Source of the DNA: Chloroflexota bacterium
GTDB lineage: Bacteria; Chloroflexota; Anaerolineae; UBA2200; JACIWT01
DNA length: 33,442 bases
Direction: 5' to 3'
NCBI GenBank assembly: GCA_014360825.1
Contig: JACIWT010000022.1
Span: 1 to 33,442, forward strand
Shown here: positions 4,769 to 21,737 of the stretch, piece after piece
Layout: each line of letters starts with the position of its first letter
Numbering within the stretch: the stretch's first letter is position 1
The notes under the pieces: model-generated
What the model was told of the DNA's origin: nothing
What the model saw: the letters and a program-made list of their open reading frames with translations, nothing else
The model's database searches: none
Program-made: the position numbers and the translations under genes

Positions 4769-4860
4769 CTTGCCTCCTGTATCCTGCCTCTTGCATCCTG
4801 CCTCCTGCCTCTTGCATCCTGCCTCCTGCCTCTTGCATCTTGCCCCTTGCCTCTTGCATC
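4769..4860. repeat. Minisatellite (about 21-bp CTCTTGCATCCTGCCTCCTGC units)
   Basis: Imperfect tandem units made of CTTGCATCCTG and CCTCCTGC words fill the whole gap between two cassette genes. Read on the minus strand they contain AGGAGG and ATG words, so the array provides the Shine-Dalgarno site of the downstream gene. It also overlaps the TGA stop of the upstream capsid gene. The same word set recurs at 9331-9519. Confidence 0.85.
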
Positions 4861-5752
4861 ATGAGAGCGGGCGGATGCCCTTGAGCCGGGCCAGGGCCGC
4901 CTTGCGGAAAAGCGCCAGGCCGCAGTACCACTTGATGCGATGTCGCCGGGCGTCCTTGGTCTCCATCGGGCCCACGTCCTCGTGGACGATGCCGCCGTTC
5001 TCCAGACCTATCACCCCGCGCATCATCCCGAACTGGATGAACCAGATGCTGGTGCAATCCGAGGATGTGCCCTGGGTCTCGGTGTTGAGGATGAAGTCGT
5101 CGGCGGCGATGGGGATGCCGTCGTAGGTTTCGATGCGCCGGCCGAAGGCGTTCACGTGGGCTTCCTCCGAGACCCCTGCCGCTCGGCGCAGGGTCTTGAG
5201 TTCGCGCAAGGTGCGCTTGCTCATGCAGATCAGGTCCGGTCGGCCAGGGGCCACCAGGTCGAGGGCTTCGTCGAATTTGGCCAGGGTGAGTTTGGCCCCG
5301 TTGGTGCCCATGCTCACCTCCTGCCCCGCATCCACCAGTTTTGCCAGGCCGTCGAAGGCGTTTTCGTCCTCGGCGGTATCGCCGTAGTAGAAGGTCTCCA
5401 TGAATTTGTGGGCTACCGCTTTGGCTTTGGCAGCGATGACCGCGGCGGTGAGGTCGTTGTGGCTGGCGTAGGTGGCTTGGAGGAAGGCGTCTATGTCGGC
5501 GTTATCGCCCAAGATGGCTAAGGTGGCGGTTACCTGCTCGAAGGTGGGCGCCGACTCGCCCCATTCGGCGTTGGGGGCATGGAATTCGGCGTCGCCCAGG
5601 GTGGCCTCGCGGTTGTATTTGAGCGCTGAGCCGGTGATGGCCATGAAGGGCAGGTAGTCGAAGACGGCGGATTCCTTCACGATGGCCTCGATCACGCCGC
5701 GCAGGAGCAGGTCCTGGGTCAATTTGGCTGCTTCAGTTTTGCTGAGTGGCAT
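4859..5752 (-). CDS. Phage-type major capsid protein (HK97-like)
   Basis: 297 aa. The N-terminal helix (SKTEAAKLTQDLLLRGVIEAIVKES) leads to SAVFDYLPFMAITGSALKYNRE, resembling the N-arm/E-loop entry of HK97-fold major capsid proteins of about 300 aa. The middle has LDLVAPGRPDLICMSKRTLRELKTLRR, typical of the family's A/P-domain junction. The C-terminus contains FGMMRGVIGLENGGIVHEDVG and ends RLKGIRPLS. The large terminase, portal and scaffold-like genes upstream are in the usual head-operon order and support the call. The protein has no obvious cleaved prodomain, so a separate scaffold (5799-6302) makes sense. Start: ATG with AGGAGG five bases before it. An encapsulin-type nanocompartment shares this fold but would not come with a terminase and portal. 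Confidence 0.8.
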   Translation of the reverse strand: MPLSKTEAAKLTQDLLLRGVIEAIVKESAVFDYLPFMAITGSALKYNREATLGDAEFHAPNAEWGESAPTFEQVTATLAILGDNADIDAFLQATYASHNDLTAAVIAAKAKAVAHKFMETFYYGDTAEDENAFDGLAKLVDAGQEVSMGTNGAKLTLAKFDEALDLVAPGRPDLICMSKRTLRELKTLRRAAGVSEEAHVNAFGRRIETYDGIPIAADDFILNTETQGTSSDCTSIWFIQFGMMRGVIGLENGGIVHEDVGPMETKDARRHRIKWYCGLALFRKAALARLKGIRPLS

Positions 5753-5775
5753 TTATACCTCCTTTGTGGATTGCG

Positions 5776-5802
5776 GTAGGACAAATTGCCAATTTGTCCT
5801 AC
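5776..5802. repeat. 27-bp palindrome providing the scaffold gene's stop codon
   Basis: Perfect 13-bp arms GTAGGACAAATTG/CAATTTGTCCTAC around one base. On the minus strand the outer GTAG holds the TAG stop of the scaffold-like gene (5799-5801). The other end is about 24 bp before the capsid start codon. Confidence 0.9.
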
Positions 5803-6302
5803 CGTCTGGATAGGCCGACGGCGATTTTCGCCTCGGGGGAGAGGGCCGAGAGGTCCTCGGCGATGATTTGGCGGGGTGCGCCGCCCAGGGGTGTGGCTTG
5901 CCCCACGATGCGCTCCCGCAGGCTGGCGAAGGCAGATTTTGCCCGCTCCAGGCTGGAGTCCACTTCCTCGATGGTCTGGCCAGCCACCAGGTCGGGCACG
6001 ATGTCGGCGTGGGCGGCGATGACCTGCTGGCGGTAGCGAGCCACGGCGGTGGCGTAGTCCTGGCGGGCGGCGTCGCGCTCGGCGGTGAGGGCTTGGAGCG
6101 TGGCCTGGGCAGCGTCGAGTTCGGCGCGCAGGCGCTCGAGTTCGGACGGTTCATCTTGGGCAGGCACGAGGCCCGCCCCTACATCCTGGGCGGGCACAAG
6201 GCCTGGCCCTACGTCTTGGGTGGGCACAAGACCTGGCACTGCGTCTTGGGCAGGCACGAGGCCTGCCCCTACGTCTTGGGTGGCGGTCGGTTCGGTTTCC
6301 AT
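5799..6302 (-). CDS. Scaffold-like protein with a repeat-derived N-terminus
   Basis: 167 aa, between portal and major capsid, the usual place of a scaffold. Residues 9-48 are four copies of a 10-residue repeat, QDVGAGLVPA and variants, encoded by a 30-bp tandem repeat related to the window's interspersed repeat. Residues about 50-95 are a strong coiled coil (ELERLRAELDAAQATLQAL...). The tail is acidic/hydrophobic and ends AEDLSALSPEAKIAVGLSRR. Phage scaffolds are typically Glu/Ala-rich coiled coils with a small basic tail that contacts the capsid; function here is by position and composition only. No protease motif was seen, so proteolytic maturation would need another source. Start: the ATG eight bases after AGGAGG. 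Its stop TAG belongs to the palindrome at 5776-5802. Confidence 0.6.
   Translation of the reverse strand: METEPTATQDVGAGLVPAQDAVPGLVPTQDVGPGLVPAQDVGAGLVPAQDEPSELERLRAELDAAQATLQALTAERDAARQDYATAVARYRQQVIAAHADIVPDLVAGQTIEEVDSSLERAKSAFASLRERIVGQATPLGGAPRQIIAEDLSALSPEAKIAVGLSRR
6156..6275. repeat. Four 30-bp in-frame tandem repeats
   Basis: Four units of 30 bp, each of the form CTTGGGCAGGCACGAGGCCTGCCCCTACGT with changes. The unit is half of the interspersed GGGCGGGCACAAGGCCCGCCCCTAC element plus a CTTGGG linker. It is translated on the minus strand as QDVGAGLVPA. Confidence 0.85.
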
Positions 6303-6313
6303 AGGTATCACCT

Positions 6314-6485
6314 CCTTTCCGTTGGGCGAAGTATCGCCTCGCCCCTACATTTCCTCGCGCACGCGGTTCATCCCTTCCGTTGGGCGAGGCATCGCCTCGC
6401 CCCTACATTTCCTCGCGCACGCGGTTCATCCCTTCCGTTGGACGAGGCATCGCCTCGCCCCTACGTTTCCTCGCGCACACGGTTC
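6314..6485. repeat. Three 58-bp tandem repeats duplicating the portal gene's 3' end
   Basis: GTTGGGCG/GTTGGACG words recur at 6321, 6379 and 6437, giving a 58-bp period. Each unit holds a GGCGAGGCGATGCCTCGCC hairpin and a CGTGCGCGAGGAA segment. The unit nearest the portal contains the last codons of that gene (VREET, stop). The other two are untranslated copies of that 3' end. They fill the gap before the scaffold gene. Confidence 0.85.
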
Positions 6486-7789
6486 AGCTCGGCCTCTGGG
6501 TCTTTGATGCCGGTGAGGAGGGCGGCGGTGCGGCGGCTGTGGATGCCCGCGCCCACCAGGGCCACCTCTCGCGCGGCCACTTCGCCCTCGTCCTCCGGCA
6601 AGACCGGGCCGAAACTCACTTGGGTGCGCTTGCTGCCATACTCGGCGCCGGTCATGCGCTCCAGCACCGAGAGGATCATCCAGTTGCGCTGGCGTACCAT
6701 CGCCCCCCAGATCAGGCGCTTGACTTCCACCATATCCACCAGGGGGTCGAGTTCCAGGCGCATAGCACGCCAGGCTTCGGCTTTCGATTGTCCCAGGGCA
6801 GCGCGGGGGACGGCGCTCAGGTCGTGGAGGACGCCGAGCAGGAGTTCGATGGAGCGCAGGTGGTATTCGCCCACTGGGCCCAATAGATCCAGCACCTGGG
6901 CCCGCGCCCCCGGCGGGATGTGCCACACTTCCCCCGGCCCCACGCGGATGCCCCGCGAGGAGTCCACGCCCTCCAATAGCACCACCGGGTTCCCCGAGAC
7001 GCGCATCAGCCACATCAGGGTGCTCAGGCGCTCGTTGAGTTGCTGGCAGACCGGGCGGATGATCTCCACATCGGCGCGGCCCCAGAACTCCTTGGGGCGC
7101 TTGAGATTGGGCCAGATGGTGTAGGGCAGGAAGCCGTATGGATTGGGTTGGCGGGAGACCTGCGCGCCGTCGGCGTAGAGGGTGGTGGTCTCGGCGGTCC
7201 AGTCTTCGATGATCTCGACCTCGGCGCTCTGGGCGCGCAACCCGAACCAGTATTCCGCTTCCTCGCCGGCCAGGTGGTAACGCTGGACCACGCGGTACAG
7301 GTCGCGGAAGTTGTCGCCGCGCCACCAGGCCCAGAGGCCCTCCACGCAGACCGGCAACACGCGCACCCGCTGGCGGCGGGGATCCCAGCGGACGGTGTAG
7401 CAGCCATCGCCCAGGACGGCGGCATCCACCGCAGTCTCATAATCGGCGATGTCCAATTGTTCGGTCTCGTAGACATCGTAGAGGGCATCGCGGGCTCGCT
7501 CGGCGCTGGCGAGGGCTTCGGGCATCTCCGCCCAGGGCAGGACACGGAACTCCATCCCGCGCACCAGTTTGGAGGCGGTTACTTCCACCAGGCGTTGGGC
7601 GTAGTTGAAGACTTCGCGCACCTCGTCGGCGCGCTGGCGCGTGGTGCGGGGATGCTGCTGGTAGAGTTCGCCGTTGTAGAAGTCCAGGTTGGCGCGGTAG
7701 CGGGCCATGCGCTCGGCGTCGCGCGAGGTGAGGGCGTCGGAGAGGGTGGAGCCGAACAATTTGCCAGTGAGATCACGCAGGATAGACAT
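6461..7789 (-). CDS. Phage portal protein (SPP1 gp6-like)
   Basis: 442 aa, the usual size for a portal. Near the N-terminus is RYRANLDFYNGELYQQ, followed by FNYAQRLVEVTASKLVRGMEFRV and DYETAVDAAVLGDGCYTVRWD. This matches the wing/clip arrangement of SPP1 gp6-type portals, which form the dodecameric DNA gate at one capsid vertex. It lies between the large terminase and the scaffold/capsid genes, as in most head operons. Start: the ATG at 7787-7789, with AGGAGG four bases upstream; a longer start (MPICPTGG...) would read through the palindrome at 7800-7826. The stop TAG is the GTAG edge of a GGCGAGGC hairpin repeat, and the gene's last codons are present in three tandem copies downstream. Confidence 0.8.
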   Translation of the reverse strand: MSILRDLTGKLFGSTLSDALTSRDAERMARYRANLDFYNGELYQQHPRTTRQRADEVREVFNYAQRLVEVTASKLVRGMEFRVLPWAEMPEALASAERARDALYDVYETEQLDIADYETAVDAAVLGDGCYTVRWDPRRQRVRVLPVCVEGLWAWWRGDNFRDLYRVVQRYHLAGEEAEYWFGLRAQSAEVEIIEDWTAETTTLYADGAQVSRQPNPYGFLPYTIWPNLKRPKEFWGRADVEIIRPVCQQLNERLSTLMWLMRVSGNPVVLLEGVDSSRGIRVGPGEVWHIPPGARAQVLDLLGPVGEYHLRSIELLLGVLHDLSAVPRAALGQSKAEAWRAMRLELDPLVDMVEVKRLIWGAMVRQRNWMILSVLERMTGAEYGSKRTQVSFGPVLPEDEGEVAAREVALVGAGIHSRRTAALLTGIKDPEAELNRVREET

Positions 7790-7799
7790 AGTACCTCCT

Positions 7800-7826
7800 G
7801 TAGGACAAATTGGCAATTTGTCCTAC
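7800..7826. repeat. 27-bp palindrome abutting the portal ribosome site
   Basis: Perfect arms GTAGGACAAATTG/CAATTTGTCCTAC. Its edge touches the AGGAGG ribosome site of the portal gene. A second hairpin repeat (GGGATGCCTCGCCCCTAC, about 7848-7865) supplies the large terminase stop. Confidence 0.85.
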
Positions 7827-7861
7827 TACTACGGATAGGCCGGTTCGGGGATGCCTCGCCC

Positions 7862-9313
7862 CTACTCGCCTACGGCCACCCGGGGCCGCCAGTCCACCTC
7901 ATCCAGCCGGGCGCACAGGGCGGCGCTGACCAGCAGGTCGTCGTGCACCGCCGGGTCGGCGACGCCCCAGCGCATCCGTCGCGCCGGGCCGGGCAGCACC
8001 TCGGCCTGGGCGGCCTGCACCTCACGCCAGAATTGCGCCGTATCGGGCGCACCGTCGTCGGCGTACTCCTTGTAGCGCCCGCTGTCCACCACCGCCAGGA
8101 AGCCCCATCCCAGATCCGATTTGGTGGCCAGGTTGAAGGCGTAGGGTATCACCTGGCGGGGGTAGCGGGCGGTTAGGAAGCCGGAAAGGCCGGCACCAAT
8201 GCCCGTGGCGTCCACCACGATCCAGCGGGGATGCCAGGTCTCCGCCAGGTCGGTCAGGGCGGCGTAGAGGGTCGGTTGGCCGACACCCGTCCAGCGGCGG
8301 CGATCGAGGACGCGGTAGGTGGGCAGGGCAGTGATGCCGGTGGGCGGCTCGACGGCCACGATAGTCAGGGCGGTGGAGTCGCGGCGGACCGGGCCCAGGT
8401 CGGGCAAGCCCAATTGCGTCGGGCGCTGCAGGATGGTCTCGTCGCCGCCGGCCACATCCAGCAGGAACGCCACCATCTGCCCTGGGGCGATGGGTCGGGT
8501 CTGGCGGGGGTGGGTGCCGCGCATCGTCTCCTGGCGCGCTGGCGGGAACATCTGCGCCTCCTGGTCAATTTCCTCCAGGAAATACTGGGTGCGGATCATA
8601 GGGTGCTGACGTCCCAGGCGGGCGATCTCAGCGTTGACATAATCGCGATAGGCGGGAACCTGCGTCGCCACCGCTTCGGCGTCGGCCACGAAGACGCGGC
8701 GGATGCCATCGGCGGCTTCCAGTCGGTGCAGGGCGCGTACCTGGTGCGATAGGAGAGTGTTGGAGGTCCAGGCGGTGCCGTAGAAGACGGTGGTGGCGTT
8801 GGTGGAGGCAGCCATGGGGGCGAATTCCTTATCCCACTTGCTGGGGTCCACGTCCTGGGCCTCGTCGCATTCTAAGAGGAGCGAGGCGGTCTGGCCGACG
8901 ACGTGGGCCTGGGGGTGGGCGGAGAGGAAGTGGACTTGAGCACGCCCGAAGCAGACGATGTGGCCATCCTCGATGGATTGCAGGCTCTGGGGGAAGGCGG
9001 AGAGGCAGTCGCGGAGGCGGCGCAGGCTGATGGCGGCCTGGGGGCGGAAGGTGGGGGCGGCCTTGACGATAGTGGCCCCGGCTACTCGGTGATAGAGGAC
9101 GAGCAGATAGGCCTCCACCTGGGCGCTGAGTTCGTTTTTCCCGGCCTGGCGCGCCATCACGATGGCGAAGGTGAGGCCGCGGCAATGCAAGACGCTGTCT
9201 AAGATGGCCCGCGCCGGTTCGAGTTGGTACGGGCGCAACTCGCGGCCCACCACGTAGCGTGAGAAAGGACGGATGTCGGCCAGGCAACGGAGAAGGGCTT
9301 TTTGCAGTGTCAC
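7862..9313 (-). CDS. Phage terminase, large subunit
   Basis: 483 aa. The N-terminal ATPase has a Walker A-like MARQAGKN (53-60) and Walker B LLLECDEAQD (145-154), followed by a coupling-like FYGTAWTSNT. The C-terminal RNase H-like nuclease has Asp286 in FLLDVAGGDE, Asp368 in WIVVDATGIG and Asp458/459 in VHDDLLVSAAL, the expected acidic triad. This is the motor that cuts and packages DNA into proheads; both activities look intact. Start is GTG at 9313 (TLQKALLRCL); the ribosome site is weak and a minisatellite begins 18 bp upstream. The stop TAG is in a GTAGGGGCGAGGCATCCCC repeat edge. Confidence 0.88.
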   Translation of the reverse strand: MTLQKALLRCLADIRPFSRYVVGRELRPYQLEPARAILDSVLHCRGLTFAIVMARQAGKNELSAQVEAYLLVLYHRVAGATIVKAAPTFRPQAAISLRRLRDCLSAFPQSLQSIEDGHIVCFGRAQVHFLSAHPQAHVVGQTASLLLECDEAQDVDPSKWDKEFAPMAASTNATTVFYGTAWTSNTLLSHQVRALHRLEAADGIRRVFVADAEAVATQVPAYRDYVNAEIARLGRQHPMIRTQYFLEEIDQEAQMFPPARQETMRGTHPRQTRPIAPGQMVAFLLDVAGGDETILQRPTQLGLPDLGPVRRDSTALTIVAVEPPTGITALPTYRVLDRRRWTGVGQPTLYAALTDLAETWHPRWIVVDATGIGAGLSGFLTARYPRQVIPYAFNLATKSDLGWGFLAVVDSGRYKEYADDGAPDTAQFWREVQAAQAEVLPGPARRMRWGVADPAVHDDLLVSAALCARLDEVDWRPRVAVGE

Positions 9314-14196: not shown

Positions 14197-14232
14197 AAAC
14201 CTCCCGCAGGTTCTGAACCTGCGGGAGGTTTT
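14197..14232 (+). terminator. Repeat-derived terminator between lipoprotein and Clp genes
   Basis: Perfect 16-bp arms AAACCTCCCGCAGGTT / AACCTGCGGGAGGTTT around CTG, followed by TTCTCC. It belongs to the CCTCCCGCAGGTT family seen at about 622, 12888 and 21488, so this terminator is an interspersed element. Confidence 0.7.
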
Positions 14233-14257: not shown

Positions 14258-16417
14258 ATGTCGGAGAAGGAGGGAGCATTCCGGGGCCTTACGTTCGGGG
14301 CGCAGCAACTGGTAGAGAACGCTGTGCAGAAGCGACAAGAGGGCAAGCACGCGCAAATGGGCGTGTATCACTGGCTGCTCGCTTTGGTGGAGCGACACGG
14401 GGCGATGGCGGAGGCGATGGCGCAGGGACTGGAGGCAGCATCGCTGCGGCGGCACCTGCGCGAACAGTTGCAGCAGGGCAACGTGGGCAAGTTGCTGGAC
14501 CAGGAGACGGTGTTGCGCCTGGCCAGCGAACGAGCACAGACGCGGTGCAAAGCCCAGGCGGCCGAGCGTGATCTCGCGGCCGTCATCCTCACTGCCGCCG
14601 GCTACACGTTAACCGAGCAGCCAGGTGTTACCACCCCTCCCCCCAGCCTCGAACCCTCGGCTTACCGCCCCCGTGCTGCCCAACCCACGCCCACGTTAGA
14701 GCAGTTCGGACGTGACCTGACCCGCGCGGCCCAGGAAGGCAAATTGAACCCCGTGGTAGGGCGCCAGGAAGAGATCCAACTGGTCATCGAAACCCTCTGT
14801 CGGCGCACGAAGCGTAACCCCGTCCTCGTGGGGCCTGCGGGCGTTGGCAAAACGGCGATTGTGGAGGGGCTGGCGCAGCGGATTGTGAAGGGCGATGTGC
14901 CCGAGGTACTGCGCGGGATACGGGTGTTGGCAGTGCAGCCCTCCACTCTGGTTGCGGGAGCCCATATAGTAGGCGAGTTGGAGAAGCGAGTGAGGGCGCT
15001 GTTAGACGAAGCCCGCCAGGAAGGCATCATCCTGTTCATTGACGAGGTGCACACTGTGATCGGTGTCGGCGGGATGGTCGGCACCGGCGATGTGGCCAGC
15101 CTGCTGAAGCCGGCCCTGGCCCGCGGTGACCTGGCCTGTATCGCCGCCACCACCGATGATGAATACCGCCGCTTCATCGAACCCGACACCGCGTTGGAAC
15201 GACGTTTCCAGCCCATACGGGTGCAGGAACTGACCCCTGAGCAGACGATGGAAGTGCTGACCACCCTAAGCCAGGAGTTCACCCGACTGCGCGGGGTTCA
15301 AATCCACGATGAGGTGCTGACGTGGTTGGTGGACTTCGCCCAGAAGTTCCTGCGCAACCGCTATTTCCCCGACAAAGCGATCGATCTGCTGGAACAGTGC
15401 GTGGCCTACGCCGTCACGCAGGGCAAGGGCACGGTGGAAAGGACGGACGCCGAGACGGTGGCGAAGCGGATGGTGGGGATGCCACTGGCAGTGGGGGCAG
15501 GATTAAGTGCACTGAGAGCGCAATTGTCCGAACGCGCCCTGCTGACGGAAGAGGATGCGGATACGCTTCTGAACCGGCTGGAGGTTACCATGCGGGGTGT
15601 GGACGTGCGCCCGGCCCGTCCGAACGCGGTGGTGCTGCTCATCGGGGACGCCACCGCGAGCAGCGAGGCGTTGGCGGAGACCATCGCCGAGACACTGTTC
15701 GGTGCGGCGGACCGCGTGGTAGCGATAGACTTCGGTCACTTCGTGCACCCCGCCGACGTGACCCTATTGGTTGGCGCGCCACCCGGCTACGTGGGCTACA
15801 GCGATGCATTGCCCATTCACCGCGTGGCGCAGATGCCGTGGTGTGTGGTGCGCTGTGAGAACATCCACCTCTGCCACCCCCAGATACGCGAAGTGCTCAA
15901 GCAGGCGCTTGCAGATGGCTTCCTGACCGACGGGCGCGGCAAGAGGATCTATCTGAGCGACACCATCGTGCTGCTGACTGCCCAGAGCGAATTGAAGGAG
16001 CAGCGCGCGCTCGGGTTCCAGCGGAGGCAAGAGATGGGCGCAGCGAGCATCCGCGAAATAGCCGAGGGGCTTCTGGGCACGGAGTTCGTCGCCCAGTGCG
16101 ACCTGGTGTGCGCCGAAGTGATGACCTCGGACGTGGCACGGCGGCGCTGGCTGGAGAAACATTTCCTGTCCGATCTCTCGGACCGCTATCGCAAGCAAGG
16201 AGTGCATCTGCGCTGGGCGGAGAGCCTCATTGATTGGCTCTTGACTCAGCAGAGCGCCTATGCCAGTCAGCGCGACTGGGAGCGACTGGTGGATGAGCGA
16301 CTCAGCCCTCTCCTCGTCCCGTACCTGTCATCTGCCAGCGAGAAGGAGGTGACATTGCGCATTGTCAAAGGCGAAGGGGATACTATTTCGGTGGAACCGG
16401 AAGAAAGGAGCGATTGA
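14258..16417 (+). CDS. ClpB/ClpC-like AAA+ unfoldase with degenerate second ATPase domain
   Basis: 719 aa. Residues 8-115 form a Clp N-domain. D1 (about 145-405) is intact: GPAGVGKT (192-199), FIDEVH (260-265), and an arginine finger in LERRFQPI (about 315). The usual D1 pore-loop GAKYRGEFE is changed to GAHIVGELE, losing the aromatic residue. The coiled-coil M domain of ClpB is missing. D2 (about 445-690) is recognisable by GAPPGYVGYSDA (506-517) and LADGFLTDGRGKRI. However, its Walker A is GDATASSEA where GPTGVGKTE is expected, its Walker B DE is EN (534-535), and sensor 1 Asn is Gln. So D2 should bind the polypeptide but not hydrolyse ATP. ATG chosen at 14258 with GAAAGGGGG upstream. It is translationally coupled to the next gene, a likely partner. 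Confidence 0.8.
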   Translation: MSEKEGAFRGLTFGAQQLVENAVQKRQEGKHAQMGVYHWLLALVERHGAMAEAMAQGLEAASLRRHLREQLQQGNVGKLLDQETVLRLASERAQTRCKAQAAERDLAAVILTAAGYTLTEQPGVTTPPPSLEPSAYRPRAAQPTPTLEQFGRDLTRAAQEGKLNPVVGRQEEIQLVIETLCRRTKRNPVLVGPAGVGKTAIVEGLAQRIVKGDVPEVLRGIRVLAVQPSTLVAGAHIVGELEKRVRALLDEARQEGIILFIDEVHTVIGVGGMVGTGDVASLLKPALARGDLACIAATTDDEYRRFIEPDTALERRFQPIRVQELTPEQTMEVLTTLSQEFTRLRGVQIHDEVLTWLVDFAQKFLRNRYFPDKAIDLLEQCVAYAVTQGKGTVERTDAETVAKRMVGMPLAVGAGLSALRAQLSERALLTEEDADTLLNRLEVTMRGVDVRPARPNAVVLLIGDATASSEALAETIAETLFGAADRVVAIDFGHFVHPADVTLLVGAPPGYVGYSDALPIHRVAQMPWCVVRCENIHLCHPQIREVLKQALADGFLTDGRGKRIYLSDTIVLLTAQSELKEQRALGFQRRQEMGAASIREIAEGLLGTEFVAQCDLVCAEVMTSDVARRRWLEKHFLSDLSDRYRKQGVHLRWAESLIDWLLTQQSAYASQRDWERLVDERLSPLLVPYLSSASEKEVTLRIVKGEGDTISVEPEERSD

Positions 16418-16419
16418 TC

Positions 16420-16863
16420 ATGGAATTCAAGACCGCAGCACAGAAAGCCTGCTACGAGAAAATCGGGCCATGGGTGAAAGAGTTGTTTGGGGCGTTCTCG
16501 ATGGCGCGCGACGATGCACCCGTGTTCGCCGTTATGAGCGGCTCGGCGATCGCCTATGTGTCGGTGGCCCCGTGGGGCGAAGATGATGCTACCATCACCG
16601 TCCGGGCGTACGTGGTCACTGGCGCGGAACCGACGCAGGATTTGATGCACTATCTGCTACAGAAAAACGACACGATGCGCTTCGGCGCATTTGGAATGGA
16701 CGAGGACAACGATATATTCTTCGAGCACACTATCGTTGGCTCCAGTTGCGACAAGGAGGAACTCAAGGCGTCGGTGATGGCGGTGGTGATGACTGCCGAC
16801 AAGTTCGACGACGAGATCGTGGCTCGTTGGGGTGGTCAGCGCGCCTTCGACCGGATGCGGTAG
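16420..16863 (+). CDS. YbjN / secretion-chaperone-like protein
   Basis: 147 aa. It starts two bases after the Clp-like gene's TGA, with AAGGAG nine bases upstream, so the two are co-transcribed and probably made together. The alpha/beta pattern (SGSAIAYVSVAPWGEDDATITVRAYVVTGAEPTQDLMHYLLQKND, then FGAFGMDEDNDIFFEHTIVG, then ELKASVMAVVMTADKFDDEIV) matches the YbjN/type III secretion chaperone fold, in which a helix packs on a curved sheet and binds a partner peptide. There is no enzyme motif. Inference: it is an adaptor or substrate-delivery factor for the Clp-like protein. The family call is by fold pattern only. Confidence 0.65.
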   Translation: MEFKTAAQKACYEKIGPWVKELFGAFSMARDDAPVFAVMSGSAIAYVSVAPWGEDDATITVRAYVVTGAEPTQDLMHYLLQKNDTMRFGAFGMDEDNDIFFEHTIVGSSCDKEELKASVMAVVMTADKFDDEIVARWGGQRAFDRMR

Positions 16864-16879: not shown

Positions 16880-17160
16880 GACAGGGAAACAGGGGGACAA
16901 GGAGACAGGGGGACAGGGAGACAGGGGGACAAGGGGACAAGGAGACAAGGAGATGGGGAGCAGTGCTTCTTGTCTCCCCCTCACTCTGGCCGTAGACATC
17001 CGCTGAGCAGCATCGATCGTAGGGGCGGGTTTCCATACCTGTCCCGGATGGCGGTCAACGGATTGAGCGGATGAATGGATGGATGGCGTGGGCATATCCG
17101 CTAATCCGCTATGCCGCAGGCCATCCGCTGAGAGATGTTGTCGGCATGACTTGTCATAAG
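16880..17160. repeat. Purine-rich low-complexity tract and repeats
   Basis: From 16880 to about 16981 runs a decamer-like array of GGGACAAGGAGACAGG units, ending in the complementary TTGTCTCCCCCTCA. It is followed by GGATGGCGGTCAACGGATTGAGCGGATG and CCATCCGCTGAGAG units. These belong to the families seen at 3549, 4008 and 28842. No gene seen. Confidence 0.75.
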
Positions 17161-21461: not shown

Positions 21462-21737
21462 GTTTCCTCCTCTCTGTGTTCCGGTACCCTCCCGCCGGTT
21501 CTGAACCTGCGGGAGGTTCGGCCATTCGTATGGTCGGGTGTAGGGGCGACCCTTGTGGGTGCCCCTGGGCGGGCACAAGGCCCGCCCCTACGGTGAATGC
21601 CCCTGGGCGGGTGTAGGGGCGACCCCTCGTGGTTGCCCCCGGGGCGGGCACCAGGTCCGCCCCTACGGTGGTTGCCCCAGGGCGGGTGTAGGGGCGACCC
21701 TTGTGGTCGCCCTACCGGGCAGGCACCAGGTCCGCCC
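21462..21737. repeat. Repeat region of GTAGGGGCGACCC/GGGCGGGCACAAGGCCC elements
   Basis: A CCTCCCGCCGGTTC/GAACCTGCGGGAGG hairpin near 21488 is followed by four to five copies of the composite element (GTAGGGGCGACCCTTGTGG then GGGCGGGCACAAGG then CCCGCCCCTAC) in spaced array. The TAG stop of the TPR gene is at its far edge. No gene. Confidence 0.75.

Follow-up and report, generated by a model that had tools for sequence, protein, structure and literature searches.

Introduction

Double-ring Clp ATPases combine two AAA+ modules, D1 and D2. In ClpA, D2 serves as the principal motor, with D1 in an auxiliary role (PMC9663308). D2 probably has the same role in related two-ring Clp enzymes. In S. 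aureus ClpC an AGF tripeptide (residues 671-673) tips the loop that docks on ClpP, and its mutation abolishes the interaction (PMC12521514). The YbjN proteins are thought to act via protein-protein contacts and not by enzymatic action (PMC5398634), and the TY-Chap families have been proposed to be peptide-binding chaperones (PMC9503650). Among the open-licence literature we found no paper that joins a YbjN protein with a Clp ATPase. We describe here a gene pair that encodes one protein of each kind. The window that was analyzed, a stretch of 33,442 nucleotides from a Chloroflexota bacterium, encodes the Hsp100 protein P0001 and the YbjN-fold protein P0002. The D1 ring of P0001 has intact catalytic motifs, the D2 ring has lost them while it keeps two other motifs and stays under selection, and the pairing of the two genes is invariant in the family.

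Materials and methods

Chloroflexota genomes were searched repeatedly, in passes that overlapped (1,734 genome searches in total), with the D2 region, an Hsp100 profile and a YbjN profile as queries, and species genomes were also scanned with the YbjN profile. In-depth sampling was confined to the Chloroflexota, and many of the genomes are metagenome bins. As canonical controls, 55 Hsp100 loci were fetched in the same way, 53 of them with at least 450 nt downstream.

Results

P0001 consists of a short N-terminal domain followed by two AAA+ modules (Table 1). Pfam Clp_N gives no match in the N-terminal domain of P0001; it is matched in the relatives L041 and L081. An earlier note, made from the sequence alone, had described D1 with intact Walker motifs and D2 with a Walker A of GDATASSEA, the Walker B acids EN and a Gln at sensor 1 next to a kept GAPPGYVGY pore loop, and the motif alignment bears out each of these points. 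The sensor 1 and Arg-finger regions of D1 are intact as well; in D2 the Arg-finger position is changed from NR to AQ and the sensor-2 Arg is still present (SQR for GAR). Loss of the pore-loop Tyr in D1 had also been claimed. This holds for P0001 itself, as compared to the canonical AG(T/A)xYRGxFE, but not without exception in the family, because L144 and L081 have a Tyr one residue later. The M domain is indeed missing: the D1 lid motif is followed by the start of D2 after only 26 residues, whereas this spacing is 148 residues in E. coli ClpB and 85-87 in ClpC-type proteins of Chloroflexota. The AlphaFold model shows a reasonably well-formed D2 apart from two flexible stretches, the pore loop (507-514) and the loop 580-592.

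Two bases separate the stop codon of P0001 from the ATG of P0002. The downstream protein had been called secretion-chaperone-like, a description that fits well with its Pfam matches to TY-Chap1 (PF22551, 3e-20, 72.6 vs a gathering score of 27 bits) and YbjN (PF10722, 1e-10, 41.9 vs 22 bits). Its model (mean pLDDT 94.6) matches structures of the YbjN family and of type III secretion chaperones, the best being 2plg, DR1245, BacA (8q8o), SycH and ExsC with a TM of about 0.55-0.69 of query. The P0002 gene is the sole YbjN-family gene in the window genome. The same genome also encodes a good ClpP, a protein of ClpX size and three large Hsp100 proteins of the ordinary kind.

Table 1. Features of the gene pair, in window coordinates.
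Feature	Position	Strand	Evidence
Hsp100/Clp-type two-ring AAA+ protein P0001, 719 aa	14258..16417	+	ORF, Pfam/NCBIfam matches; model mean pLDDT 81.5; best PDB matches ClpC
Short divergent N-terminal helical domain of P0001, residues 1-118	14258..14611	+	Pfam and model
D1 AAA+ module, residues 146-400, catalytic motifs intact	14693..15457	+	Motif alignment; dN/dS 0.056
D1 Walker A GPAGVGKT	14831..14854	+	Motif alignment
D1 pore loop AGAHIVGELE, aromatic residue absent	14954..14983	+	Motif alignment
D1 Walker B LFIDE	15032..15046	+	Motif alignment
D2 AAA+ module, residues 401-719; dead by sequence, fold predicted intact, purifying selection	15458..16414	+	Alignment, dN/dS, model
D2 Walker A position GDATASSEA, no GKT	15644..15670	+	Motif alignment
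D2 pore loop GAPPGYVGY	15773..15799	+	P-G-Y-x-G invariant in 10/10 dead-D2 proteins
D2 Walker B position VVRCEN, D-E changed to E-N	15845..15862	+	Motif alignment
D2 sensor 1 position, Asn changed to Gln	15983..15985	+	Motif alignment
LGF tripeptide, residues 585-587, at ClpC's ClpP-docking position	16010..16018	+	Profile alignment, motif alignment, model
YbjN/TY-Chap1 protein P0002, 147 aa	16420..16863	+	ORF, Pfam, predicted fold

The earlier note had proposed a profile search for proteins that share the D2 substitutions and a YbjN neighbor, and such proteins exist. Among 13 Chloroflexota relatives of P0001, nine have a dead D2 at 38-92% identity (L037, L038, L039, L046, L080, L117, L143, L144 and L145, with L037, L117 and L143 cut by contig ends), and each of them is paired with a YbjN-fold gene. 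The other four form a sister group: L040, L041 and L042, whose D2 is intact or almost intact (the Walker A of L041 reads GKM, a Thr-to-Met change), and L081, in which D2 decayed separately (GPSDTSKN, VLVHDVDKAH). With the window included, the ten dead-D2 genomes span two classes. In the tree, ten members grouped apart from ClpA, ClpB and ClpC (support 100/99), with 100/100 for the dead clade and 85/80 for the sister group; with midpoint rooting only and the dead clade on a long branch, the exact placement has to be read with care. The placement agrees with the common absence of the M domain and the common partner gene. Judged from these sequences, D2 death was apparently a separate and repeated step that occurred once in the main clade and once in L081. 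The arrangement is rare: a strong YbjN match adjoins the Hsp100 in 9/396 genomes of the class, a count that includes G841, equated with L046 by contig coordinates, and in 4/177 genomes of the second class. The closest relative, L037 (92% identical), was found in a genome of a different family, on a contig of 4.5 kb, and is absent from the two sampled congeners of that genome. This copy could reflect transfer or mis-binning, and its use for dN/dS is independent of this choice.

Across the ten dead-D2 proteins the pattern of loss and retention is sharp. The D2 Walker A Lys and Thr, the Walker B Asp and Glu and the sensor 1 Asn are lost throughout. Two of the proteins (L039, L046) keep the Arg-finger Arg and seven the sensor-2 Arg, whereas the pore loop GY[VI]G is present in all. 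There are 46 invariant D2 columns, including four in the pore loop (P, G, Y, G) and two in the tripeptide described below (G, F). The D1 motifs are intact in all eight dead-D2 proteins that hold D1 sequence. Comparison of the window with L037 yields a dN/dS of 0.092 for D2, next to 0.056 for D1 and 0.064 for YbjN. Thus, D2 is maintained by purifying selection. The earlier note had named local degeneration of D2 as the alternative to a specialized function, and we reject it based on this value and on the ten dead-D2 genomes in two classes. Homologs with an intact D2 but no YbjN gene would have been in line with such a degeneration; relatives with intact D2 do exist at 33-35% identity, yet they also carry a YbjN-fold gene.

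The earlier note had missed one feature, a tripeptide located where ClpC carries its ClpP-docking motif. All ten dead D2s contain (L/I)GF, the GF pair is kept in 14/14 family members, and the family profile aligns xGF with the AGF of S. aureus ClpC. The tripeptide is absent from E. coli ClpB, and ClpA has IGL there. In P0001 the LGF lies inside the loop of low predicted confidence (residues 580-592). The motif speaks for a ClpC-like origin and for a role linked to a protease, and the D2 ring probably docks ClpP, as far as can be judged from this conservation.

The proposed stable coupling to a YbjN-like gene was supported. A YbjN-fold gene lies directly downstream of the Hsp100 gene in 14/14 family members, with intergenic distances from -4 to 29 nt across the 12 pairs that were measured, and no YbjN match was found downstream of the 53 canonical Hsp100 loci. 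Pairwise distances among the Hsp100 proteins correlate with those among the YbjN proteins (r 0.905, 12 pairs), also within the dead clade (r 0.928, eight pairs, Mantel p 0.0004). The pair is almost certainly a real and conserved functional unit. Since the intact-D2 relatives also carry a YbjN-fold gene, the pairing belongs to the whole family, and the sequences are most simply read as a pairing older than D2 death. Alternatively, a partner swap may have taken place, as the YbjN groups of the two subclades are only about 20% identical. Two profiles detected no YbjN relatives in viral contigs, and none were found in plasmids; a viral or plasmid origin of the pair was rejected on these grounds.

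Several further arrangements of YbjN-type genes were observed. Two such genes stand in tandem after the Hsp100 gene of L042 (L042:2716-3639), and in the Thermoflexus MAG of L046 a weak TY-Chap1-like gene below the Pfam cut-off lies also upstream (L046:40-432). Relatives of P0002 with 48-54% identity occur in Leptolyngbya cyanobacteria with no Hsp100 gene nearby (L048:6001-6444, L049:3168-3597). In L122:3388-5214 a TY-Chap1 gene is followed after ~16 nt by the gene of a CbbX/EccA-like AAA+ protein that carries an AAA_lid_6 domain, an arrangement that suggests further AAA+ partners for the TY-chaperones.

Beyond the pair there are no neighbors common to the family, except that the next gene is common to the window and L037. 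In the window, the neighbors are genes for an iron alcohol dehydrogenase and for an ABM monooxygenase. In L041:4015-15001 (G012) the pair lies inside a microcompartment locus with BMC shell, EutN/CcmL, aldehyde dehydrogenase and PduS-like genes, and the same PduS-like gene adjoins the pair in L040:2313-4996 (G079). The remaining pairs are found in unrelated genomic places. Scans of promoters and terminators gave nothing above chance. A 29-base palindrome, CCTCCCGCAGGTTCTGAACCTGCGGGAGG, occurs at window positions 14200-14228, 21488-21516 and 626-654, with none expected by chance, and the first of these copies lies just upstream of the Hsp100 gene. Short tandem repeats are located just downstream of the pair (16880-16953), and the window holds many further arrays. 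On the minus strand, positions 4859-9313 encode a GP7-like major capsid protein, an SPP1-type portal and a 483 aa product without Pfam match, probably a prophage remnant.

The same class commonly encodes a second Hsp100 family of ~740 aa that is a mirror image of P0001. Here, the Walker A and B motifs of D1 are lost and the D1 pore loop is deleted, D2 is intact, and there is no xGF tripeptide. Members are L018, L016 and L030, with L015, L019, L020, L024, L026 and L032 being similar. Three members sampled for the tree group in a separate clade (support 100/100).

Discussion

In our judgment the pair is best explained as a ClpC-related unfoldase that would be driven by D1 alone, with a passive D2 that grips the substrate and probably docks ClpP and with YbjN as dedicated adaptor. 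We propose this tentatively, at a confidence that stays slightly below even; the earlier note had already suggested that one ring would use the ATP and the other hold the substrate, with an adaptor specific to this unfoldase. P0001 would assemble into a hexamer of two stacked rings in which only D1 binds and hydrolyzes ATP. D2 would act as a structural ring without hydrolysis, with Tyr pore loops that line the channel and hold the polypeptide and with a GF loop that docks on ClpP. The D2 ring would follow the movements of D1 as a rigid body, and the outcome would be weak, perhaps regulated substrate feeding and not forceful unfolding. YbjN, having a peptide-binding chaperone fold, may recognize the client and either hand it over or activate the ATPase; control would thereby shift to YbjN from the N domain, which is reduced, and the M domain, which is missing. 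Because D2 is the principal motor in ClpA (PMC9663308), P0001 would reverse the usual division of labor; by the same token, loss of D2 activity may leave the machine weak, which speaks against our explanation. Furthermore, the D2 pore loop may have been kept as a structural relic, xGF is a short motif in a low-confidence loop, and the YbjN partners of the two subclades share only about 20% identity. More doubtful is the wider claim that the family is an undescribed class of Clp protease unfoldases, in which the ClpP-distal D1 would be the sole motor, the ClpP-proximal D2 a permanently passive docked clutch and the YbjN-fold protein an obligate adaptor.

The main rival is a remodeling ATPase that works independently of ClpP, similar to NSF/SNAP, with D1 as the working ring, a D2 that chiefly keeps the hexamer together and a YbjN that presents complexes for disassembly. 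A live ring, a dead ring and a small adaptor resemble NSF, in which D1 engages the substrate and does the work (PMC6160233), and the non-aromatic D1 pore loop and the missing M domain separate P0001 from ClpC. However, the gripping Tyr of NSF sits in the live ring, while here it is in the dead one, and conservation of GF throughout the family has no obvious reason without ClpP contact; we regard this alternative as rather unlikely. Less likely still is a role of YbjN other than that of an adaptor, namely as client, as assembly chaperone or as inhibitor of the Hsp100. In favor of this, genes of class I type III secretion chaperones adjoin that of their single partner (PMC5398634), and the close or overlapping genes suggest coupled production, yet the solo relatives of P0002 in Leptolyngbya suggest that the YbjN protein can act independently of Hsp100. 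One might finally assume a decaying Hsp100 on its way out, with D2 lost by drift. The separate degradation of D2 in L081 and the Thr-to-Met change in L041 make D2 catalysis seem weakly constrained in the family, but the low dN/dS of D2, the occurrence of ten dead-D2 genomes in two classes and the invariant pore and GF motifs render this explanation very improbable.

Whether or not D1 is the only motor of a ClpP-docked unfoldase, as we favor, a dead D2 with kept pore loop and docking motif is a natural test of what each ring contributes, and the widespread but poorly understood YbjN fold gains a concrete candidate partner. By sequence and fold P0002 belongs to the YbjN/DR1245/AmyR and TY-Chap1 chaperones, whose described members are without a reported Clp ATPase partner in the papers found. 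NSF/SNAP shares with the P0001 system one working ring, one non-working ring and a small adaptor, but is unrelated as a system.

Within the Hsp100 proteins, several assignments were rejected. ClpB falls far short (NCBIfam TIGR03346, 385 bits vs a cut-off of 1232; spacing 26 vs 148), and so does ClpV/TssH (TIGR03345, 390 vs 885 bits), although the latter is the best of several weak matches; moreover, no type VI genes were noticed near P0001, and P0001 carries xGF. ClpI of Actinomycetota is likewise a separate double-ring Clp group, some members of which have LGF, but it has intact ATPase modules and an M domain of ClpC length (PMC10149685), in contrast to P0001 with its dead D2 and missing M domain. 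ClpA (TIGR02639, 355 vs 993 bits) resembles the system in lacking a long M domain, in its adjoining adaptor gene, for ClpS, and in its ClpP-docking motif IGL. In ClpA, however, both rings are active with D2 as main motor, and the adaptor gene lies upstream and encodes another fold. The family described here is set apart from ClpA, ClpB and ClpC by the absent M domain together with an adjoining downstream YbjN-fold gene.

The earlier note's verdict of neither ClpB nor ClpC stands as far as canonical membership is concerned, but the nearest relative is ClpC, as both best match and docking motif indicate. Profile comparison with solved structures gives 692 bits for ClpC and 639 or less for ClpB, and the top Foldseek matches of the P0001 model are ClpC. 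Like ClpC, which works with adaptors such as MecA and with ClpP, P0001 has two AAA+ modules, GYVG in D2 and an xGF at the same position (LGF, 585-587). Unlike ClpC, it has no M domain (spacing 26 vs 85-87), no Tyr in the D1 pore loop and a D2 ATPase that is dead by sequence, having lost sensor 1 and both Walker motifs, so that a canonical ClpC was rejected; a short N domain and a YbjN-fold partner complete the difference.
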